Both the position numbers and the translations under genes were made by a program. The notes beneath the pieces are model-generated. The model saw only the letters and a list, made by a program, of their open reading frames with translations. It was not told the origin of the DNA and made no database searches. From positions 1 to 20,861 of IMG/VR virus record IMGVR_UViG_3300042922_000618: 20,861 bases of DNA, one strand, 5' to 3'. Every line of letters starts with the position of its first letter. Position 1 is the stretch's first letter. This DNA comes from a virus. This document shows positions 1,332 through 19,610 of this stretch, in pieces.

Positions 1332-2069
1332 TTATTTCTCTTCAAAATATTGAGTTAGCCACTTATCAACCTCAAGGATTTCTGTCTTAATACCTTCTGC
1401 CAATTGCGTAATCTCGTATTGAGCACCTTTTCCCGGCTTACGCTTGTTGTAGAACTCCAAGAGTGTTCGGAGATTGCCAGTCATAACAATATTTGTGGTC
1501 CCCGCCTGTGGAATGACCGCCCTAGCATCCTCTTGCGGAACTCCAGCCGCACGTAGTTGATCATAAGCCCCTTGAGCATGTCTCATCGCTTCTTCAAAGA
1601 TGTCCCTTGCTGTTTGCAGTTCAGAAAACTCTCGGCCATCAACTTTCTCAGGCACAACATAATTAAAACCCTTGGATTTGCTATCAGTGCTCATTGGAAC
1701 ATACCTCATCGATTGGATACTAAATGAAAGGTGTCTATGGCGTGTTAATTGTCCCATAAGAGCACGACTAACTCCTTCAATAGCAAAAGTGTAATTAAGG
1801 TGTTCAAGCGTACTAGTGTGGCCTGATCCAGTGATATGACGGAATAAACGATCTGCCTCAGTGCCACTTTTACCGTCTGTGGCCTTATTGCCAAAGTATT
1901 TGTTTCCTTCAAGTGAAAGAATTTCAGTTGGTTTATTTGGTGAATAGCAGGTTCTAATCGCCGTAAGCGCAATCGAAGCTCGTTCATTGTACTCAAATTG
2001 AATATCGCTTTCGATCTGCTTTTTAAATGACTCCGATAATTGTGTATGTGCGATAAGTTGAACGTTCAT
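1332..2069 (-). CDS. thyX: Flavin-dependent thymidylate synthase ThyX
   Basis: This enzyme makes dTMP from dUMP using methylenetetrahydrofolate and NADPH through FAD, and as a homotetramer. The 245-aa protein carries the ThyX signature RHRHLSFSIQSMRY at residues 110-123, matching RHRxxSxxxxSxRY. Flanking conserved stretches include HTSTLEH near residue 84 and the C-terminal NLRTLLEFYNKR. Length is normal for the family. The ATG follows GGGAGGT closely. It lies 27 nt after dut, whose product dUMP is its substrate, at the end of the nrd-dut-thyX series. This gives dTMP synthesis independent of the host enzyme. A 21-bp AT-rich sequence over its stop (1318-1338) recurs at 9688-9708. Confidence 0.97.
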   Translation of the reverse strand: MNVQLIAHTQLSESFKKQIESDIQFEYNERASIALTAIRTCYSPNKPTEILSLEGNKYFGNKATDGKSGTEADRLFRHITGSGHTSTLEHLNYTFAIEGVSRALMGQLTRHRHLSFSIQSMRYVPMSTDSKSKGFNYVVPEKVDGREFSELQTARDIFEEAMRHAQGAYDQLRAAGVPQEDARAVIPQAGTTNIVMTGNLRTLLEFYNKRKPGKGAQYEITQLAEGIKTEILEVDKWLTQYFEEK

Positions 2070-2096
2070 TTAGACCTCCCAGTTTATAGTGTTGAA

Positions 2097-2615
2097 TTAA
2101 TTAGTCCCTGTGCTCCCGAAGCCACCACGATCAGTGTCATCAAGATAATCTACATCTACAATCTCAACATCATCCATTACTCGATTAATCCTGAACTGAC
2201 AGATGCGATCATTCTTCTTGATGATAGTATCACGCATAGCAAGTGCAGGAAAATGCCATTGATCATTGTTTCCTGAATAAGAATTATCTATGACTCCAAA
2301 ACTATTTGTTTGTAGAATACCGAAGTTCTTAAAGGTGCTGCTACGAGGAACAACATTTGCTTCGTAACCATCTGGGAGTTTCATTCCTACTCCAAGAGGA
2401 ATAAGCTTAAATTCTCCTGTTTTCAATTCAACATCGACTGCGGATCGCAAATCAATCCAATCCCCATGCGATATTTTAGTTAATGGTTCAACATCGGTGA
2501 AATATTTAACTTTAATTTGTTTACCGATCCGATTTTTGTATTGATCTATACCCTTAAATATCATTTTTGATACTTCGTCCATTCCTACAATATCATTATG
2601 AAATGGTTGTTTCAT
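2097..2615 (-). CDS. dut: dUTP diphosphatase (dUTPase), trimeric type
   Basis: It hydrolyses dUTP to dUMP and pyrophosphate, keeping uracil out of DNA and feeding ThyX. All five motifs of the trimeric family are visible in the 172-aa protein: DLRSA at 55-59, PRSST at 90-94, GVIDNSYSG at 107-115, NDRICQF at 135-141 and RGGFGSTG at 163-170. Motif 1 has DLRSAVD rather than the common DLxAA, and there is an N-terminal extension of about 40 residues before the core. The frame is open 14 codons further upstream. The start at 2615 (MKQPF) is chosen because AAGGGAG lies inside that extension, about 12 nt before this ATG. It lies between nrdF and thyX in the same direction. Confidence 0.95.
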
Positions 2616-2646
2616 TATGTTTGTATTCTCCCTTAATAATTTTATT

Positions 2647-3603
2647 TTAAAATACAAAATCTTCTTCAGTCATTCTTTCTACATTTAGTGCTCGAACGTA
2701 TCCATTCCCTTTCTTGGAGAAGAAGTCATGTTGCTTCGTGCCTGTGTTAATACCGTTTTGAACAATCGGATTAATCTGAACGTCATCATAAATTGGTTCA
2801 ATGCCAAGGTTCATGAAGGCTTTATTAGCGTTATAGCGGACAAATTGTTTAACTTCATCAACAAGGCCAACACCAGCATAGATTTCCTCAGTATAACTAT
2901 CCTCATTTTCCATTAGCTTATTAAGCAGTTCCAGCAAGATCCCCTTAACTTCATTCTGAACTTCCGGCTCTAACTCTGCATAAATCTCCTGTGCAATAAC
3001 GCCAACATATACACCGTGAATGCTTTCATCGCGGAGAATCAAATCAATAATTTCACCGCTTGATGTCATCTTGCCTTGCCCTGCCAAATACAACGGATAA
3101 AAGAATCCGGAATAGAACAGGAAACTTTCTAGAAGTACTGATGCGCTCATAGCCAAATATAGACGGGCTGGTCTGTCTATAGTCTTATAAAATGATTCAA
3201 TCAGTTTACCTTTAAATTGCAGCTGTGGGTTTGTTTCAACCCAGGAAAATACTGCATCAATCTGTTCTGTAGTAGCCAAAGTTGTAAAAATACTGCTGTA
3301 AGACTTCGCATGAATCTGCTCCATCATTGACATAAAGCCAAGTACAGCTTTACGCTGAAGACCATCAACATGCTCAAGAATCTTGGGCATTCCTACTCCT
3401 CCTTGCAGTGTATCAAGAAGGGTAAGTCCACCGAGTACTTTCATATATGTATCTCGTTGGACATCAGTCATTTCCATCCAACTCATTTTGTCATCTGATA
3501 ATGGAATTTCATCATCTGTCCAGAATTGTTGAATATTCTGATTCCAGAATAGTAATGAAAAATCATCGTCTGGCCTGTTCCAATTTACTGCTTTTAAATT
3601 CAT
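2647..3603 (-). CDS. nrdF: Class Ib ribonucleotide reductase, beta subunit NrdF
   Basis: This is the radical-generating small subunit of the class Ib ribonucleotide reductase, 318 aa, complete. Metal ligands expected for the dinuclear (Mn or Fe) site are present: D64, E95, H98, E159, E193 and H196. The radical tyrosine is Y102 in the MEQIHAKSY context. The C-terminus ends EEDFVF, an acidic-aromatic tail of the type that docks onto NrdE. The ATG at 3603 is 21 nt after the nrdE stop and has GAGGAT upstream. Neither an intein nor an intron interrupts it. NrdI, encoded just upstream, normally supplies the oxidant for the Mn cofactor. Confidence 0.96.
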
Positions 3604-3624
3604 ATTTTAAAGTATCCTCTTTTC

Positions 3625-5700
3625 TTAAATCGCGCAAGAAGTGCATTCTTCAACGCTTAGTTTCTTAGTTCTTGTGTAGTAAAGTGATTTAAGACCTTTG
3701 TAATTGGCATAGACGTAATATCTGCCCAATTCTCTGGTCGATACATCGCTATTAACAAAGAGGATAGTAGATACTCCTTGGTCAATGTGGCGTTGGATTT
3801 CAGATATGAGATCAATCATCTTAAACATGTTCATATTGTAGGCAGATTTATAATAATAGAAATTATCTGGACTTAGATATGGCATCGGGTAATAGGTGGT
3901 TGAGTTGGCGTAAGTTCGTGTTTCAATATGTTCCACAATCGGAGTTACACTTGCAGTTGCATTTTGGACATAGCCAATAGATTGTGTTGGTGCAATTGCC
4001 AATCGATAGGCATTTGCTAGTCCATGATACATCACTCTGCTTTTGAGCTTGTTCCAATCCGATTGATTTGGTAGATAGATGCCCTCAAAGAGCTGCTTAA
4101 CCTTCTCTCTTTTAGGGTTAAAATCTTCAACAAGATACAGATTAAAGTAATTACCATTCGCATATTCTGATTTTTCAAACCCATCAAATGTCCCATATTT
4201 TTTGGACAATTCCATACTAGCCTCCAACGAATAGAAATTCATCGCAGAGAAAAATGCACGTACAAACTCAATGGCTTCTTTGCTCTCATATGCAATCTTA
4301 TTCTTTGCAAAGTATCCATGCAGGTTCATTGCACCTAAGCCTACGGAATGTAGTTCTTTATTGGCCTTTTTTACACCAGGAGCATTGGAAATATTGGTTA
4401 GTCTTGCTACGGAATCGATAGCTAGAATGCCTTCAAATACTGACTCTTTGAGTTTCTTATGCTCCATCACATTAACAATATTAAGAGAGGCTAAATTACA
4501 ACTAATATCTCGTTTAATTTTGTCTCCTACACCATAATCATTAATTGTTGAAATCTCTTGTAACTGAAATATTTCGGTACAAAGGTTAGACATTTTGATA
4601 CTGCCTACATTTTTTAATGCATGATGCTTGTTTGCATTATCAATGTTTGCAATGTATGGATAGCCAGATTCTAATTGAGTAGCTGCAATTTTTGTAAGCA
4701 TGTCTCTGGCATCAAGTTGTTTCTTCTTTACATCTGGATGCTTGATTAAGGCTTCATACATTGAGCTTAGATCCATATCGTCCAGGTGAACACCAAATGC
4801 CTTGTGAACTGAATGAGGAGCGAATACATAGAAAGGCAAATCGTCCTTAGCTAAGTCGTAAAATTTTTGTGGAATTATCAGTCCAATAGACAGCGTCTTT
4901 AATCGAGTCTTCTCGTCAGCGTTAATCTTCTTGCTGTCCAAGAACTCCAGGACATCCCAGCCAAAAATATTATAATAAGCCGCACCTGAACCCTTACGCT
5001 GGCCCATCTGGTCCGCATAGGAGAAGCCGTCTTCCATAAGCTTCAGGACAGGCATGATGCCTTTAGCAGCTCCCTCTACTCCTTTAATAGCTTCTCCTCT
5101 ACCACGCAGTTTGCTCAAGTTGACAGCAACACCACCACCGATTTTAGACAACTGCATGCAAGTGTTAAGCACATAGTTAATCGAATTAAGAGAATCGTCC
5201 ATCTCTAATAGGAAGCACGAGACCATCTCGCCTCTTCGACTACGGCCAGCGTTGAGATATGTTGGAGTGCTTGGTTGAATTCGCTGCTCCATAAATCCAC
5301 GAACCAATGATTCAGCAAGGTTATTATTACCTTGTGCAAGATACATTGCCACAATGCAATTATGCTGCTCATAATCCTCCAGGTAATTATCTTTATTGTT
5401 TGTCTTCAAAGAGTAATCCTTAAAAAACTTCTGTGCAGCCATAAATGATGCAAATTTGAAATTATAGCTATATGCTAAGTCGTGAAGCTTTTCGATTTGC
5501 TCAGAAGTGTAATAATTATATAAATTTTCATAATAATTTTCTTGAATAAGAAATTCAATTCTTTCCTTGTTAGACGGAAAGTGAAGTGTTTTGAGTTTTA
5601 CTTCTTTCAGGTACTCTTTAACAGCTTGTAAATCCTTCTCAAGATCAAAGAAACCATCCTTCTTCTGCATTACTTGATTATTAAGTTCTAAATATTTCAA
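3625..5700 (-). CDS. nrdE: Class Ib ribonucleotide reductase, alpha subunit NrdE
   Basis: This catalytic subunit reduces ribonucleoside diphosphates to deoxy forms. The 691-aa protein has the redox cysteine pair C162 (SCFLLEM) and C401 (SCNLASLN). The active-site triad is N372, C374 and E376 (NLCTE). The loop ANAYRLAIAPTQS is also present. A paired tyrosine (LYYTRTKK) precedes the C-terminal CTSC (C686, C689), which exchanges electrons with a NrdH-type redoxin. No N-terminal ATP cone is seen, as usual for class Ib. The start is TTG at 5698-5700, overlapping the TGA of nrdI (TTGA) with GAGAGGAT upstream. No nrdH is found in this window, so the reductant must be encoded elsewhere. The gene is uninterrupted. 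Confidence 0.96.
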   Translation of the reverse strand: MKYLELNNQVMQKKDGFFDLEKDLQAVKEYLKEVKLKTLHFPSNKERIEFLIQENYYENLYNYYTSEQIEKLHDLAYSYNFKFASFMAAQKFFKDYSLKTNNKDNYLEDYEQHNCIVAMYLAQGNNNLAESLVRGFMEQRIQPSTPTYLNAGRSRRGEMVSCFLLEMDDSLNSINYVLNTCMQLSKIGGGVAVNLSKLRGRGEAIKGVEGAAKGIMPVLKLMEDGFSYADQMGQRKGSGAAYYNIFGWDVLEFLDSKKINADEKTRLKTLSIGLIIPQKFYDLAKDDLPFYVFAPHSVHKAFGVHLDDMDLSSMYEALIKHPDVKKKQLDARDMLTKIAATQLESGYPYIANIDNANKHHALKNVGSIKMSNLCTEIFQLQEISTINDYGVGDKIKRDISCNLASLNIVNVMEHKKLKESVFEGILAIDSVARLTNISNAPGVKKANKELHSVGLGAMNLHGYFAKNKIAYESKEAIEFVRAFFSAMNFYSLEASMELSKKYGTFDGFEKSEYANGNYFNLYLVEDFNPKREKVKQLFEGIYLPNQSDWNKLKSRVMYHGLANAYRLAIAPTQSIGYVQNATASVTPIVEHIETRTYANSTTYYPMPYLSPDNFYYYKSAYNMNMFKMIDLISEIQRHIDQGVSTILFVNSDVSTRELGRYYVYANYKGLKSLYYTRTKKLSVEECTSCAI

Positions 5701-6047
5701 AGTTGTTTTATCCTCTCTCGCAGTAATTTCACATCATCTTCAATGCCTGATATTTCGAACTTATAAAGTAATGGAACATTGTATTGTTCAGAGATCAGGT
5801 CTCCAGCATTGGCGAATAATGCACCCCAATTTCGATTGCCACTAGCCACAACACCTTGTAGCTGCCGATGATTACTTTTTAAGAATTCTTCAACAGACTT
5901 AGGTATTTTTCCAAATCCGGTGGTGTATGTGATTAACACATATGGTTCGTTGATTTCAAGTCCTGGCTTAATCTTTATATTTCTCATATTCAATCTATCA
6001 ACAAATCGTTGGACATTACCTGTGAGCGAATCGAAAACAATAAGCAA
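5697..6047 (-). CDS. nrdI: Flavodoxin-like NrdI
   Basis: NrdI is a small flavodoxin that activates the class Ib beta subunit by delivering an oxidant to the di-manganese site. The 116-aa sequence has the family features: the phosphate-binding loop DSLTGNVQRF at the N-terminus, TYTTGFGKIP in the middle, SGNRNWGALFANAGD, and NVPLLYKFEISG near the end. The start is TTG at 6047, immediately after the nrdG stop (TAA directly followed by TTG), with GGAGG 7 nt upstream inside the nrdG end. Its own stop overlaps the nrdE start. This arrangement implies coupled translation of nrdG, nrdI and nrdE. Confidence 0.95.
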   Translation of the reverse strand: MLIVFDSLTGNVQRFVDRLNMRNIKIKPGLEINEPYVLITYTTGFGKIPKSVEEFLKSNHRQLQGVVASGNRNWGALFANAGDLISEQYNVPLLYKFEISGIEDDVKLLRERIKQL

Positions 6048-6563
6048 TTAGTTTCCTCCACTCAAAGGCAATAGAGCAGCCTTACCTTGATTTAAACTTT
6101 CTTTGACATTCAACACTCGTTGATTCCTTGAGCCTCTCCACTTCAGAGTTAAGTCTCGAAGTTCCAATTCAAATCGTCCATCAATCAAAACATCACAATA
6201 CGAAAGCAATTCTTTCTGCTTGTTATTTTGAAGAATCTCCTCGAATGTATGACCGGACCAAATCCAAATATCTTTATTTTCACATTCTGCCTTTATTCTT
6301 CTTACCAATGGAAGCAAACCATCTACACTTTGTAGAGGTTCGCCGCCAAGGATTGACAAGCCTGAGATCTTAACATAATCAATATTTAAGTCTTCAATAA
6401 TTTTATCCTCAAATTCTTTTGTATATGGTTTTCCATAATTAAAGTTCCAGATTGAAGCATTAAAACACCCTTTGCAATGATGAGAACAACCCGATGTATA
6501 GAGTGAATGTCTTAGTCCGATACCATTTATTACATCAAAACGTTTGTAATCGGCAATATTCAT
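6048..6563 (-). CDS. nrdG: Anaerobic ribonucleotide reductase activating protein NrdG
   Basis: NrdG is the radical-SAM activase that installs the glycyl radical on NrdD. The 171-aa protein contains the iron-sulfur motif C26-x3-C30-x2-C33 (GCSHHCKGC) and the SAM-binding GGEP stretch in LSILGGEPLQ near residue 75. Other family features include IWIWSGHTFEEI, YCDVLIDGRF and the C-terminal RGSRNQRVL. Length is normal. The ATG overlaps the nrdD stop (ATGA), and only a weak TAGGG lies upstream, so translation probably depends on coupling to nrdD. As an oxygen-sensitive enzyme it would work only under low oxygen. Confidence 0.96.
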   Translation of the reverse strand: MNIADYKRFDVINGIGLRHSLYTSGCSHHCKGCFNASIWNFNYGKPYTKEFEDKIIEDLNIDYVKISGLSILGGEPLQSVDGLLPLVRRIKAECENKDIWIWSGHTFEEILQNNKQKELLSYCDVLIDGRFELELRDLTLKWRGSRNQRVLNVKESLNQGKAALLPLSGGN

Positions 6564-8749
6564 TTATGTTTGACCCTACTCACAACCTCACTCTGTTTAC
6601 CTGCATTGAAGGGACGTTGTGATGGCTCCGACAAATACCCACAACAGCGTCTTATAACCGAAGAAGTTTTTGGATTTCCATTATCGCAATTAGGGCATGT
6701 AAAACCTGTTACTGTTGCTTCAAACTCTCCCTCAAATCCACATTCAAGGCATTTATCTACTGGTGTATTTGTACCAAAGTAAGGAACTCTTTCGTAAGCA
6801 AAGTCCCATACAGCTTCTAGTGCTTCAGGATTTTTTACAAGGGAATCGAACTCACAGTAAACAATAAATCCACCACTAGCATATTGAGGATAGTCCTTTT
6901 CAAATTCAATTTTCTCAAATGGAGTAGTCTTCTTTTGGACATCTAAATGATAACTATTTGTGTAGTAACCCTTATCTGTAACCCCATAGATCAAACCGAA
7001 CTGTTCTTCATCCAATTTACAGAAGCGATAACATAGACTCTCTGCTGGAGTCGAATAAAGACTAAAGCCATAACCAGTTTCATCTTTCCATTCTTCAGCC
7101 TTATTACTCAGATATTTAACTATGTTTATCCCTTTCTGTCTGAGGACAAGATCGTCAAAAATGTGCTTCCCGAACAGCGACAGTACAGTTTCATGTACTC
7201 CAATGTAGCCGAGCGAAATACTTGATCTTCCATTCTCAAGTAAATGGTCAATCGTATCTTCAGCTTGAAGTCTTGCTCCTGTCGCACCCTCCATATAGAG
7301 AATTGGTGCTACTTTTGCCTTTATTCCTTTTAAACGTTCAATCCGATACATTAAAGCTTCCTTACATACTTCAAGCATTTCGTCTAAAAGTTTATAGAAT
7401 CTCGATTCTGAACCTTCTGCTCTGATTGCAATTCGCGGCAGATTAATTGTGGTTACGCCCATGTTGAAGCGTCCATCATGAATTATCTTTTGATTTTCTA
7501 TGTATTGACTAAGAAAACTTCTGCACCCCATAGGGAACTTAAATGAACCCGTTATTTCTTTAACTTTAGGTACTGACAAAATGTCTGGGTACATACGCAA
7601 GGTGCTACACTGAATTGCCAACTTCTTAATATCATAGTTAGGATCTTCAGGTTTAACGTTTATTCCTTCTTCCAGAGCAAAAATGAGTTTAGGAAACACG
7701 GGAGTCTTTCCTTCTTTACCCAACCCTCTAATTCGATTCTTCAGAATGGCAATTTGAATTTGACGTTCTTCCCAAGATGTACCTCTACCAAACCCGAATG
7801 TTGAAAATGGTGTTTGGCCATTAGCTGAAACCAATGTATTGATTTCATATTCCAATGACTGAAAAGCATCTAATGTTTCTTTTTCAGTTAGTCTCAGAGC
7901 ATAGTCATAACATCTAGGGAAACGACTTGCAATGTCAAGATTGTCTACTGATATATTGAGCACATTGATAAGATCTGCTTCGGCGTTATATAACCATTCC
8001 ATACCTGTCTTAAAGTGTTTCTCAAATGATTTGCTGACGTATGGTGATAACACCTTGTCAATCTCATTAATTGTATTTCCACCATAGATATGGCTAGAAA
8101 CTTGAGCAATAATTTGTGCCGTTACTGCTGCGGCTGTTGTTATGGATTTTGGAGTCTCAATTTGAGCATTTCCTAGTTTAAATCCATTCTCTAGCATCTC
8201 TTTAAGATCAATTAGCATACAATTATAGCTTGGGAAATATGGTGAGTAATCTTGATCATGCTGATGAATATCACCGTTGTTGTGGGCTTCTACAACTCGC
8301 TTAGGAATCATATAGGCTTGAGCAAAGTCTTTTGCCATAATTCCGGCCAGCAAGTCACGTTGAGTTGGGATTGTTTGACTATCCTTATTAGAGTTCTCAC
8401 TCATAACTTCGGTGTTCGTCAGATCTAACAAACCTTGTACTTTCTTATCTAAAGCACTACGCTCTCTTCGTTTAAGGCTCCTAACTTCTCTGTATCTTAT
8501 GTATTCTACTGCAACATCTTTTCGCTTACTAAGCATAAGAGCTGCCACAACTTCATCTTGGATGTGTTCAATATCCACTGCTTCCAAATCATTAATTCTA
8601 TGTATTACTCTGTCCGTTACTTTGTTTAAGACCTCTTTATCAAGTCCCTTTTCGGTTCGAATCATCGCGTTTATTATTGCCTGAAGTATTTTTAATTTAT
8701 TAAATTCAACCCGTGTTCCATCTCTTTTAGTTACTAGCGTAGTTATCAT
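6560..8749 (-). CDS. nrdD: Class III anaerobic ribonucleoside-triphosphate reductase NrdD
   Basis: NrdD reduces ribonucleoside triphosphates anaerobically using a glycyl radical. The 729-aa protein starts with an ATP-cone-like domain (TLVTKRDGTRVEFNKLK, about residues 4-90), which would give allosteric control. It ends with the zinc site CLEC ... CPNC followed by RRCCGYL, in which G704 is the expected radical glycine, and then RPFNAGK and RVKH. The central region has conserved stretches such as TPFSTFGFGRGTSWEERQIQ. The gene appears complete. Its ATG lies directly against AGGAG with no spacer, which is unusually close; no better ATG is nearby. It heads the nrdD-G-I-E-F series after a 37-nt gap. 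Confidence 0.96.
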   Translation of the reverse strand: MITTLVTKRDGTRVEFNKLKILQAIINAMIRTEKGLDKEVLNKVTDRVIHRINDLEAVDIEHIQDEVVAALMLSKRKDVAVEYIRYREVRSLKRRERSALDKKVQGLLDLTNTEVMSENSNKDSQTIPTQRDLLAGIMAKDFAQAYMIPKRVVEAHNNGDIHQHDQDYSPYFPSYNCMLIDLKEMLENGFKLGNAQIETPKSITTAAAVTAQIIAQVSSHIYGGNTINEIDKVLSPYVSKSFEKHFKTGMEWLYNAEADLINVLNISVDNLDIASRFPRCYDYALRLTEKETLDAFQSLEYEINTLVSANGQTPFSTFGFGRGTSWEERQIQIAILKNRIRGLGKEGKTPVFPKLIFALEEGINVKPEDPNYDIKKLAIQCSTLRMYPDILSVPKVKEITGSFKFPMGCRSFLSQYIENQKIIHDGRFNMGVTTINLPRIAIRAEGSESRFYKLLDEMLEVCKEALMYRIERLKGIKAKVAPILYMEGATGARLQAEDTIDHLLENGRSSISLGYIGVHETVLSLFGKHIFDDLVLRQKGINIVKYLSNKAEEWKDETGYGFSLYSTPAESLCYRFCKLDEEQFGLIYGVTDKGYYTNSYHLDVQKKTTPFEKIEFEKDYPQYASGGFIVYCEFDSLVKNPEALEAVWDFAYERVPYFGTNTPVDKCLECGFEGEFEATVTGFTCPNCDNGNPKTSSVIRRCCGYLSEPSQRPFNAGKQSEVVSRVKHK

Positions 8750-12438: not shown

Positions 12439-13562
12439 TATTCTTCGTCTCCCATTCGATAGAGTTTTCCATTGGTTAGATACTCATTTCTATATCTTGG
12501 TTTATACTGTTCCCAAATCTCTTCTAAGCTTCCAGAAAATAAAACTACTTCTTCAGTTGTATAACCGCTTCCCCATCTGCTCGGTACTTTTCTTTTGTCT
12601 GTGATTTGGTAGTTCTTGCTGTCTCTTTCTCCCTTTACTTCAACATAACTACTTTTGTCGTTAGCGATATAAACAGAAGTACCATAGTGCCAAGCATATT
12701 TCCCAATTTTGCTTTTCACTTTTTCAATGAACCTAGAAAGATCGTAGTAAACATATTCATCTTTTAATTCGTCATATGGTGAGTAGCAACTTCTTTGTTC
12801 TAACAAATCAAACATCTCCGCATAACGTTCGCAGCAATCATTTGAAACGGTCTCTATAATTCTGTCTCCAAGGGATTTTAGATTCAGGATATGCAAATCT
12901 TGTTTCTTTCGATAATTAATTATTTCTTTTGCAAATATGTATTGTTTTCCTTTATTGACATTCTCATAATAACTATCCTTGTAACCATTTCCCGAATTCC
13001 ACTTGGTATCCCAATAATCGTACCTCCCCATATATACAAGCTCTTGATTATCTTTAGTTCTATAAGTAGCGCCAACAATTAATTCCTTAGATTTGATATA
13101 GGTTTTATCATGAAGAACCTTATTGAACTGGCTTATCTCTTGATAATCTGGCGAATCTACAGGTAGGAGAATCAAATTCTTCCCGTCCCACGAGTAAACG
13201 AATTCTCCTTCTAAACCCTTCCCCTTGATGGAGTTGGTGTTTTCAAGAATATAGAGCAGATTTTCAATTGTAATCTCGAATTCAAACCCTCTTGGATCGT
13301 ATACACGAGTATATGCTTGACGATGGTTCCAGCCATCTTTGTAATCTCCAACCTTCTTATTTAAAACGAATCCTGAAACTGGTTCATTGTCGTATTCAAT
13401 TGAATCGATCTTCTTATCTCTCCAGCCTTCCCAAGAAGTTTCCTGGCGTAGTTTACCTTTCGCATCGTAGTAAATTACAAAGGCAAGTTTCTTAGTGTAT
13501 GTATTTTCTCTATTCTGGAATCCAACTTTAATCTTTTGTGGAACAAAAATATTAGTCTTCAT
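12438..13562 (-). CDS. Conserved-looking phage protein of unknown function, 374 aa
   Basis: A 374-aa soluble protein rich in Tyr, Trp, Lys and Asp. The N-terminal part (KIKVGFQNRENTYTKKLAFV ... SWEGWRDKKIDS ... PVSGFVLNKKVG) looks like a type of unknown protein I associate with large Gram-positive phages, but that is from memory and unproven. The C-terminal part (WGSGYTTEEVVLFSGSLEEI) is also beta-rich. No catalytic motif, membrane segment or signal peptide is visible. AAAGGAGAG precedes the ATG, which overlaps the HNH gene end by 11 nt. The following gene overlaps its stop. Confidence 0.8.
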   Translation of the reverse strand: MKTNIFVPQKIKVGFQNRENTYTKKLAFVIYYDAKGKLRQETSWEGWRDKKIDSIEYDNEPVSGFVLNKKVGDYKDGWNHRQAYTRVYDPRGFEFEITIENLLYILENTNSIKGKGLEGEFVYSWDGKNLILLPVDSPDYQEISQFNKVLHDKTYIKSKELIVGATYRTKDNQELVYMGRYDYWDTKWNSGNGYKDSYYENVNKGKQYIFAKEIINYRKKQDLHILNLKSLGDRIIETVSNDCCERYAEMFDLLEQRSCYSPYDELKDEYVYYDLSRFIEKVKSKIGKYAWHYGTSVYIANDKSSYVEVKGERDSKNYQITDKRKVPSRWGSGYTTEEVVLFSGSLEEIWEQYKPRYRNEYLTNGKLYRMGDEE

Positions 13563-14265
13563 TTAATCTCTCCTTTTTCCTATTTTCCCTGTGTCTTTTA
13601 TGATCATCTTCTAGCCATTTATTTATTTTTAAAAATCTCTCCTCTTGATAAAAAGGCTGCTTTAGATACCATACATCCACATCGTGTATCCACTTGCTTG
13701 AGTTACAATGAAGGCATGATGGCACACAATTACTCAAATTATTGCTTCCGTTATGGTCAACATGTTCCTTATGTAGATCTGATTTAATAAGTTTATGTTT
13801 TCTCTTTTGAAAATGATCTTTCTCATGTAACCCACAGTACGCACAAGAATCATCGAAATACTCTTTGCAAATAGACCATTCTTCATTAGTGATTTCATGA
13901 GCTTTGTTTTGTCTGTTTTCACGGTATGTTTTAAATTTGTGCTTGTTATTATTGACCCACTCTTGATGGGTTTCTCCGTCTCTGTATTTTTGATCGTTCT
14001 TTCTTTTTGTGGCTCTGCTAGATTCTTTTGCTTTTTCAGATCGTTTATAATCTCTATGTGTTTCTGCGTTATCTTTTACCCATTTCGCAGACTTTTCTTT
14101 AGTGCAGGTTTTACAATACGGATTAAATCCATCTACGCCATTTAATTTATTCTGATAAAAATTATTTTTATCCATGAGTAACCACTTCAAACATACAGAG
14201 CATTGTTTATATATTTCACCTTCGACAGTCTTATGATTTAGTTCATATGGTAGGCCTCTTGGAAT
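13552..14265 (-). CDS. HNH endonuclease with N-terminal zinc finger, probable ATT start
   Basis: A 237-aa HNH nuclease if started at ATT (14263-14265). An N-terminal zinc module has CSVC (22-25) and CKTC (51-54) in the pattern QCSVCLKW ... GFNPYCKTC. A long basic helical linker follows, then the HNH core: CAYC (141-144), HKEHVDHNGSN (around 165-175) and CLHCNSSKW (184-192). These proteins are often free-standing homing endonucleases in phages. No ATG, GTG or TTG lies between the in-frame TAA and CSVC. The first ATG (14190) would cut off half of the zinc site. The extended N-terminus MPRGLPYELNHKTVEGE fits a natural protein start, and GGAAGGGAG lies 10 nt before the ATT. A lost start codon is the alternative. 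Confidence 0.8.
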   Translation of the reverse strand: MPRGLPYELNHKTVEGEIYKQCSVCLKWLLMDKNNFYQNKLNGVDGFNPYCKTCTKEKSAKWVKDNAETHRDYKRSEKAKESSRATKRKNDQKYRDGETHQEWVNNNKHKFKTYRENRQNKAHEITNEEWSICKEYFDDSCAYCGLHEKDHFQKRKHKLIKSDLHKEHVDHNGSNNLSNCVPSCLHCNSSKWIHDVDVWYLKQPFYQEERFLKINKWLEDDHKRHRENRKKERLNED

Positions 14266-16528: not shown

Positions 16529-18173
16529 TTATATTTCACGGAAATCTTCGATAAATAATTGCATTGTTTTAATGACTTTAAACTTCGGTTTATATACCTT
16601 CCAGTAGTTCATATTCAATGATCCTATGGCTTCAACTTCGGCAAAGACTGGAACATCATTAAAATAATCTTCATCAGTTTTGAATTTCATCAACTGTATT
16701 TCACCACAGTCTATCTTCACGGTATTGTTGAGTTTCCCCATTAACTTCTTGTCTGAAATAAACAGATTCTTAATAAGGAACTTCCCTGGCTTAAAGCCAT
16801 TCCCTGAAATTCGATAGAAATCTGAGAGATATAGAATTAGTTTTTCGTTGATCTCCTTAATATCAAACTCAAGTTCATAGTATAGTGAGTCATCTGGTTC
16901 AAAGTTACAAAGTTTTTCGTTCAACTCTTGTCTAAGAACATCAATGTCCTCTTTAAATAATTGTACCCCTCCGGCACCTGGATGGCCTCCGGTGTAAATA
17001 ACGCTCTCACACTCATCTAACAAGTCCAGCATTGAGAAATCTTCTGGGCCGCGATAGCTTCCTGCATATGTATTTGGATCATCACCTTCACCGAGTACAA
17101 TTGCTGGTCTGTTAAAGTACTTGGATAACTCCTGACCGACCAATCCGTTGTACCCTTTTCCAAGAGTTGGGTCAAAGACTATAATCGTTTTATCTTGTTC
17201 ATCGATAAATGGTTTTAGGGCTTGTAATGCCTCGGCTTGAATCTGTTTACGCTTCTCATTCGACCTCACCAGTTCTTTAGCAAGCGTCTTAACTTCTGGG
17301 CAATCTTTATCACACAATAAGAAGTCTATCGCTAATTTAATATTATCAGCTCTAGTAGCTGCAGTTACAGCAGGGCTTACTCCATACAAGAAATCTGTAG
17401 CTGTTAGATTGTTTAATTCGAAACCCATCTCTTGAAAGAGAGTTTTTAGTCCAAAGTGTCTTAAACCTAGCAAAGACTGCTTGGCATAATATCTGTTTTC
17501 CATTTCCATCATAGACATCATATCTGCCATTAATGAGAACCCTGGCAAATCGCTCAAATCATTTGAATAGTATGTATCCATATAATCATCAATTACCTGA
17601 CACACCTTATAAACAAGTAATCCTCCGCAGGCATTCTTATTGGGATACTTACATCCGACTTGCTGTGGATTAACAAGAATTGCATATGGATTTTCCACTG
17701 TAACTGCATGATGGTCAATGATTAAACAATCAATCCCTCGTTCAACTAACGTTCTCATTGAATCAACATCATTTGACGAACTATCTACGGCGATAAGGAG
17801 TTTAGTATGTTCAGGAATTCCATCAATTAAACCATTAATCGAGTGACCTTCTGAGCGTTCGTTGCAAACATAATATACTTCATCAGTAAAGTTTTTGAGG
17901 TATTTATACAATGTTACCAATGAAGTTACACCGTCATAATCTTAACTAATCAGGATCTCCTGTGATCGTGATTGGCTCACGGTTCCGAATTGCTAGAATA
18001 ATTCTAGTTGCCAGTTCATTAATGTTTTTTAGAAGATATGAGTCGCATATCACATTTGATAACGGGTTAAGAAATTGATCTATGTTAGAAATTCCATGTA
18101 GCTTTGCTAATTTAGAATATGTATTGTCGTACTTATCAAATTCTATTGCAGGTTTGCGTTGTTTCCAATTCAA
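16529..18173 (-). CDS. RecJ-like DHH/DHHA1 ssDNA exonuclease, split by a 10-nt coding gap
   Basis: Two frames together encode a 544-aa RecJ-like protein, near the usual RecJ length. Part 1 (18173-17946) runs from a TTG start, placed 8 nt after AAGGAGTGA, to GDPD and then TAG. Part 2, ending at 16529, resumes YDGVTSLVTLYKY. Joined at the two GAT codons the sequence is GDPDYDG (residues 72-78), matching DHH motif I GDYDADG. Further motifs follow: AVDSSSND, IIDHHAV (the DHH motif), and GGHPGAGGV of the DHHA1 domain, then an OB-like C-terminal region. The expected role is 5'-3' degradation of single-stranded DNA in phage recombination or replication. Without joining, both pieces lose the metal-binding motif. 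Neither part has another stop or frameshift. It could be a bypassed gene or a very recent mutant. Confidence 0.85.
17936..17963 (-). promoter_or_regulatory. Candidate translational bypass (hop) site in the DHH gene
   Basis: On the minus strand the codons are GGA GAT CCT GAT, then TAG (17946-17948). After the 7 nt TAGTTAA comes a second GAT (17939-17941) and TAT GAC GGT. The downstream frame is closed by TAA immediately before the second GAT, so a one-base shift cannot join the frames. Skipping 10 nt between the matched GAT codons does. The five bases GATTA occur at both take-off and landing. AGGAG (17957-17961), a Shine-Dalgarno-like sequence, lies 5 nt before the take-off codon within the palindrome CAGGAGATCCTG. 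Confidence 0.55.
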
Positions 18174-18201
18174 TGGTAAAATCACTCCTTCAAACATGTA
18201 T

Positions 18202-18689: not shown

Positions 18690-19076
18690 TTATTGAATTT
18701 TAATCCAAGACCCATCTTCAATATTTTTGAGAACATCGTCCTGACCATAAGTTGCAGACTCAATCTCTCCGTCTTCGATCCACTCAACCTTGCATCGTTC
18801 TTCATTCAAATATTTTGCTCTGTAAATTACATGTGGTTCACTGCGGTGGTAGAAATTAAATTCACTCTCCAATTTTATTCCCACCCTGCTTCTGCCTTCA
18901 CTAATCAATTCGTCAAGATATAATTTTGCATCATCTGCTGCCATGTTCCACAAGATAACCTCGTCATCTGATAATTCAATATCTGGATTTTGAAACACCC
19001 CGGAAATGGTCTGAATTTTACCCTGTAGCCTTAAGAATCTACTGAAAAATTGCTCGTCTGTATTTACTTTTCTCAT
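18690..19076 (-). CDS. Hypothetical protein, 128 aa, paralogue of 19413-19610
   Basis: Residues 9-60 form a helical domain (RFLRLQGKIQTISGVFQNPD ... LYLDELISEG) that matches the gene at 19413-19610 over FQNP, DD, WN and LDxLIxE. Residues 65-128 are a separate beta-rich part ending NIEDGSWIKIQ. AAGGAG lies 9 nt before the ATG at 19076, and the longer open frame upstream lies inside the zinc-protein gene. It is not recognised. Confidence 0.7.
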   Translation of the reverse strand: MRKVNTDEQFFSRFLRLQGKIQTISGVFQNPDIELSDDEVILWNMAADDAKLYLDELISEGRSRVGIKLESEFNFYHRSEPHVIYRAKYLNEERCKVEWIEDGEIESATYGQDDVLKNIEDGSWIKIQ

Positions 19077-19092
19077 ATATATATACTCCTTC

Positions 19093-19412: not shown

Positions 19413-19610
19413 TCAGCTCTCCATGAAATTATTTGCTTCATCAATCAGATCGTCCAGGATATCACGAATCTGATTAGCTTGTTTGTTCCAACTCTCAATT
19501 TGATCATCTGTAAATACTGTGTTAGGATTCTGAAAAATTGAGAAGAGTAACGATACATCCATTGGAAATAGCTTTGTTCTAAAGATAAAATTGCTTTCTT
19601 CTTGGCTCAC
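19413..19610 (-). CDS. Hypothetical protein, 65 aa, paralogue of 18690-19076
   Basis: This short helical protein consists only of the domain shared with 18690-19076: LLFSIFQNPNTVFTDDQIES, then SWNKQANQIRDILDDLIDEA. It is likely a duplicated copy that lacks, or never gained, the C-terminal extension. Upstream AGGAGGT lies in the gap after the next gene. Function is unknown. Confidence 0.7.
   Translation of the reverse strand: MSQEESNFIFRTKLFPMDVSLLFSIFQNPNTVFTDDQIESWNKQANQIRDILDDLIDEANNFMES

Follow-up and report, generated by a model that had tools for sequence, protein, structure and literature searches.

A conserved interruption of the catalytic motif in phage recJ-like genes suggests short programmed translational bypassing

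We analyzed a 20,861-base virus record (IMGVR_UViG_3300042922_000618; the whole stretch is called the window here), which is kin to Paenibacillus prophages. Its minus strand encodes a recJ-like gene that is broken inside motif I. We propose that this is an intact phage gene for a RecJ-like ssDNA exonuclease and that its mRNA contains a short programmed translational bypass. There are no expression data, and we put the probability of this reading at roughly three in four. The best reading of the sequence is that the gene resembles bypassing of the T4 type, except that its gap is much shorter and varies. Since no product has been observed, the gene is not a proven member of that class; its layout fits.

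The break reads GGA GAT CCT GAT TAG TTAA GAT TAT GAC. All recJ coordinates given here are on the minus strand. A Shine-Dalgarno-like AAGGAG is located upstream of the recJ start at 18185-18190, and such a sequence also precedes the start in the homologue L008 and in most of the relatives with an AUA start. The 5′ ORF (17946-18173) runs from a TTG start to a TAG stop over 75 codons, aligns with the N-termini of the relatives and ends in ...ITITGDPD. An in-frame ATG at 18197 would give a longer ORF; it lies upstream of the Shine-Dalgarno sequence and is unlikely to be the recJ start. The take-off codon GAT (Asp) is at 17949-17951, the TAG stop immediately 3′ of it at 17946-17948, the remaining part of the skipped gap, TTAA, at 17942-17945, and the landing codon GAT at 17939-17941. 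In other words, seven bases separate the take-off GAT from the second GAT (17941-17939), from which the frame is open to 16529. This 3′ ORF (16529-17941, landing codon to stop) encodes the rest of motif I, DHH, DHHA1 and RecJ-OB, as judged from Pfam and PHROG matches and from alignment to solved RecJ structures. The +1 frame is closed too, by AGT TAA just before the landing GAT. Because the zero and +1 frames are both closed in the window, the ORFs are not joined there by readthrough or by one shift in the +1 or -1 direction. An earlier note on this DNA had described where the frames end and resume, had held that no simple +1 or -1 shift could join them, and had stated that a GAT-to-GAT join gives GDPDYDG and a 544-aa protein without another defect; we confirmed all of this, with the gene placed on the minus strand. 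The insert is present once in the window. An exact 24-mer of the insert had no match in other viral contigs because its last letters vary, and nucleotide searches of phage records gave no useful match at the recJ locus.

The identity of the protein is supported on both sides of the break. The 3′ part matches Pfam DHH above the cut-off and DHHA1 and RecJ_OB just below the Pfam cut-off, and it matches PHROG 2484, “RecJ-like ssDNA exonuclease”, with an E value of 8.7e-103. For the 5′ part, the match is to the beginning of this family (PHROG 2484, E value 3e-8). A profile built from the relatives matches solved RecJ enzymes (8y30, E value 6e-49), and in the structure alignment the break coincides with the motif I catalytic aspartates of these enzymes. 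The motif I aspartates, the DHH motif, DHHA1 and the OB domain are all present; motif I is whole only after the hop. SPbeta YorK and the PHROG 2484 RecJ-like exonucleases belong to the same protein family as the window recJ. In the more distant homologues compared, which do not include YorK itself, the reading frame is unbroken through motif I.

A first scan gave five relatives with 64-67% identity, all uninterrupted, and these favoured a private and recent insertion. That idea was overturned when a scan with the alignment of the relatives, together with genome searches, found interrupted homologues; the genome matches came from the genus and family of the genome of L007 (a Paenibacillus species). 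Alignment with homologues, which had been suggested as a check for conserved gaps, placed the break at the identical codon in seven further distinct genes (L008, L009, L011, L013, L017, L050 and L054). L008 and L011 each have two database entries (L051 and L047 are the duplicates), and the number of distinct interrupted genes is eight including the window. Judged from these sequences, a shared break at the same codon is far from chance and is not a private mutation. Pattern matches in L039, L041 and L059-L061 were discarded as unrelated genes. The consensus of all eight genes is GA[TC]-CC[TC]-GAT-TAG, then TTAA, TTAG, TTCA, CCA or CTA, then GAT, GAC or GGC, then TAT, TAC or TTT, and finally GA[TC] GGN. 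Conservation of take-off, stop and landing is thus directly observed: GAT-TAG is invariant (8/8), with the stop codon directly after the take-off codon, and the landing triplet keeps its compatibility with tRNA-Asp while the other gap letters drift. The take-off and landing pairs are GAT-GAT in five genes, GAT-GAC in one and GAT-GGC in two (L013 and L050). The gap is 10 nt in the window, L008, L009, L011 and L054 and 9 nt in L013, L017 and L050; the two parts of the gene are out of frame in five genes and in frame in three.

The frames around the gap limit how it could be decoded. In the window, L008, L009 and L011, the zero and +1 frames are both closed. In L013, L017 and L050, the in-frame TAG is the sole barrier, and in L054 the +1 frame is open (AGT TCA GAT). 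No single frameshift or readthrough fits both gap lengths. If the ribosome hops from GAU to the triplet that precedes UAU or UUU, however, the result is GDPD[Y/F]DG, an exact restoration of the motif, in 8/8. As far as sequences alone can tell, no simple decoding event other than bypassing would give the RecJ motif in every one of the eight genes. By established decoding rules, tRNA-Asp, with the anticodon GUC, reads both GAU and GAC. The GGC landing triplet of L013 and L050 is mismatched to the take-off codon and needs a middle G·U pair; we infer that GGC pairs with GUC in this manner. The bypassing proposed in the earlier note is supported by the restored motif in every interrupted gene. Three points need correction: the 6-7 nt between the codons are far fewer than the roughly 50 nt of T4, two homologues would land on GGC, and there are no data on product or efficiency.

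Both halves of the gene are under purifying selection. The pN/pS values of the interrupted genes are 0.148 for the N-part and 0.208 for the C-part, those of the uninterrupted relatives are 0.202 and 0.247, respectively, and L013 and L050, which combine the 9-nt gap with GGC landing, are under even tighter constraint (0.053 and 0.088). Among the interrupted N-parts, on average about 58% of synonymous sites differ. Because pN/pS is low in both parts, both are read and matter. The C-part has a pS of 0.51 and a pN of 0.04 over its first eight codons; the codons directly 3′ of the gap (YDGVTS) vary almost only synonymously, and there is no ATG, GTG or TTG before YDGVTS in the 3′ part. Since the constraint starts right at the C-part, reading picks up again immediately 3′ of the gap, ahead of any potential restart codon. 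A second defect is absent in all eight interrupted genes.

These observations bear on the explanations that do without a hop. The gene might make two products, a 75-aa N fragment and a C fragment of about 460 aa produced by reinitiation, which assemble or have separate roles; TTG, GTG or ATG does occur about 8-11 codons 3′ of the gap in most members. However, the YDGVTS codons lie before any such start and are constrained in the 3′ frame, no Shine-Dalgarno sequence was seen before the restart codons, and a split within the metal-binding motif should inactivate the enzyme, so that only a slender chance is left to this explanation. A pseudogene or loss-of-function allele, with the insertion as an inherited neutral lesion in a dispensable RecJ gene, has a more slender one. 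Close relatives do have uninterrupted versions, but strong purifying selection acts on both halves across a large synonymous divergence, and none of the eight genes carries a second defect. The main rival in the earlier note, a 10-bp insertion, taken here as a recent event in a gene undergoing decay, is contradicted by the same selection and divergence and by the shared gap.

The remaining explanations concern the RNA or the decoding of the gap. Exact excision of the 9-10 nt before translation, at the RNA or DNA level and by an unknown system, would likewise restore the motif in all eight genes, and it is the least improbable of the four rivals, though still very unlikely. We know of no phage splicing or editing system that removes 9-10 nt. 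Moreover, the sequence and length of the gap vary and only GATTAG is conserved at its ends, a landing triplet compatible with tRNA-Asp would be unnecessary, and the stop adjoining the take-off codon would have no role. Readthrough or frameshifting, which would add three residues to motif I of the protein, is the most improbable. Readthrough is possible in the 9-nt genes with the in-frame TAG (L013, L017 and L050) and a +1 shift is possible in L054, but neither can work as a single event in the window, L008, L009 and L011. In addition, no homologue in the alignment has the TAG changed to a sense codon, and a three-residue insertion is seemingly not tolerated. Stop reassignment or a suppressor tRNA found no support: TAG is an ordinary stop in 3/28 ORFs of the window, and no tRNA genes were found in the window or in the flanks read (about 9-kb loci).

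We then consider RNA structures that might assist bypassing. A 5′ hairpin is predicted at 17964-17984; its core, CGUGA/UCACG (17981-17967), ends 15 nt before the take-off codon. The core pairs are kept in 8/8 interrupted genes (core of 4-5 bp, up to 8 bp; only 4 bp in L017 and L054), and the hairpin is absent from the six closest uninterrupted relatives. In 6/8 interrupted genes, its stability exceeds that of about 94-99% of synonymous recodings. Two-sided covariation was not detected among the eight interrupted genes, and a stimulatory role of the hairpin is an inference. Bypassing of the T4 type would also call for a take-off stem-loop with the stop in or near its loop. A second hairpin is predicted at the take-off site, with -6.8 kcal/mol in L011 and -3.6 to -4.3 kcal/mol in L009, L013, L050 and L054; it is weak or missing in the window, L008 and L017. 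Local RNA folding around the window gap alone was not unusual. A 131-nt fold in the window (z -3.1) was set aside because it was not reproduced across homologues. Without strong stimulators, the efficiency of the hop may be low.

The hop itself is inferred. A ribosome would start at UUG, translate about 75 codons and arrive at GAU with UAG in the A site. The peptidyl-tRNA-Asp would detach from GAU, and re-forming of the hairpin behind the ribosome may help to drive the ribosome forward. The tRNA would pair again 6-7 nt downstream, with the next triplet compatible with Asp (GAU, GAC or GGC), and translation would restart at UAU/UUU-GAY-GGN, giving GDPD[Y/F]DG and an active nuclease. The product of the hop would give the tryptic peptide EPITITGDPDYDGVTSLVTLYK, without an insert. 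Ribosomes that terminate would yield only a fragment of about 75 aa without the catalytic domain.

In the tree, the interrupted genes form a clade of seven rows, to which L011 is added as a recombinant. Because L011 is nested among uninterrupted genes, two origins of the interruption had been considered; this idea was replaced by recombination. The C-part of L011 is about 95-100% identical to that of L012 over long stretches, the N-part up to the gap is not, and the breakpoint is at the gap (nt ~240 of L011 recJ). From this comparison we conclude that the start codon, N-part and gap of L011 were transferred as a module onto the C-part of an uninterrupted lineage. A single origin followed by descent and recombination could explain the shared features. 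Therefore, the eight genes should not be counted as eight independent events.

The start codons of the family were also compared. In 13 uninterrupted near relatives (L007, L010, L012, L014-L016, L018, L020-L023, L046 and L052), the codon aligned to the TTG of the window is ATA, and in two others (L024 and L035) it is ATC. These AUA/AUC-start genes have a Shine-Dalgarno-like sequence upstream, and in most of them no ATG, GTG or TTG upstream of the conserved N-terminus is usable; the in-frame GTG of L052 falls within its Shine-Dalgarno sequence. A mini-ORF (GTG...TAG) located 5′ of the AUA starts was discarded, since its GTG is part of the Shine-Dalgarno sequence and L010 does not conserve the mini-ORF. 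Every interrupted gene (8/8) starts with ATG or TTG. Across the flanking regions, recJ was the only sizeable gene group with a clear non-standard start; a 343-aa ORF of L015 was also flagged. In the more distant homologues L062 and L063, recJ apparently starts with CTG, another weak start codon. The association between start codon and interruption is striking, but few independent contrasts underlie it: the tree test has two, one of which comes from the L011 recombination. We take it as a hint, by inference, that RecJ output is kept low by either initiation or recoding. A wider proposal would be that the stop-hop and the AUA/AUC start are interchangeable translational throttles that hold or condition nuclease output, that the 9-nt members are the first natural in-frame stop-hops, and that the distant member L048 uses CCC UGA C as a +1 site in the same position. 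Taken jointly, these ideas are tentative and we would sooner bet against them, but they are not excluded. L048, which has an ATA start, shows a single-base frame offset in motif I, CCC TGA C TAC. Its CCC UGA C would be a classic +1 shift layout; this lone sequence sits on a long branch, and an error is possible.

Natural bypassing has been established or proposed for T4 gene 60, Magnusiomyces mitochondrial inserts and a candidate in the Hau3 terminase; to our knowledge, very few genes have an established case. The Magnusiomyces byp elements resemble recJ in that short inserts are tolerated in conserved genes and some landing codons are imperfectly matched. However, there are 81 such inserts under relaxed mitochondrial decoding, whereas recJ has a single, fixed site within a single family of phage genes. 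T4 gene 60 is likewise a phage gene with UAG directly after the take-off codon. Its 5′ stem-loop, which the predicted recJ hairpin resembles, forms immediately beyond the mRNA exit channel and is believed to pull on the mRNA (PMC5009743, PMC11194080). In contrast to recJ, its gap is about 50 nt instead of 6-7 nt and its tRNA is Gly instead of Asp. In recJ, moreover, no nascent-peptide signal was identified and the gap length differs among homologues. PMC5009743 cites stop-hops in synthetic constructs (Weiss et al. 1987), which are also short hops between matched codons flanking a stop; in those test cassettes 9 nt are decoded as one amino acid, whereas in recJ 12-13 nt would be decoded as one Asp in natural conserved genes. 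The same source also cites the terminase of Streptomyces phage Hau3, another phage gene, as a candidate for a short bypass that may be regulatory; it is UUA-codon based and in a different gene from recJ (PMC5009743). According to the 2016 review, a natural in-frame stop-hop was unknown, and regulatory use of bypassing would broaden the field (PMC5009743). We found no report of bypassing in RecJ genes in the open-licence literature. The recJ family supplies naturally occurring short-gap variants of both the in-frame and the out-of-frame kind, beside uninterrupted controls, and it may tie weak initiation to recoding within one gene.

Several other genes were noticed. A nucleotide-metabolism block on the minus strand of the window (1332-8749) has translations resembling, by eye, thyX, dUTPase, nrdF, nrdE, nrdI, nrdG and nrdD; only its nrdD region has DNA matches to other phages. 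ORFs that look HNH-endonuclease-like by eye are present in the window (13552-14190, minus strand) and about 2.7 kb after the recJ start in L010, and none adjoins the gap. Small related proteins with ...FFSRFL...FQNPD... or ...LFSIFQNPNTVFTDDQ... are encoded near recJ, at 18690-19080 and 19413-19610 of the window and in the flanks of L008, L009, L013 and L017.
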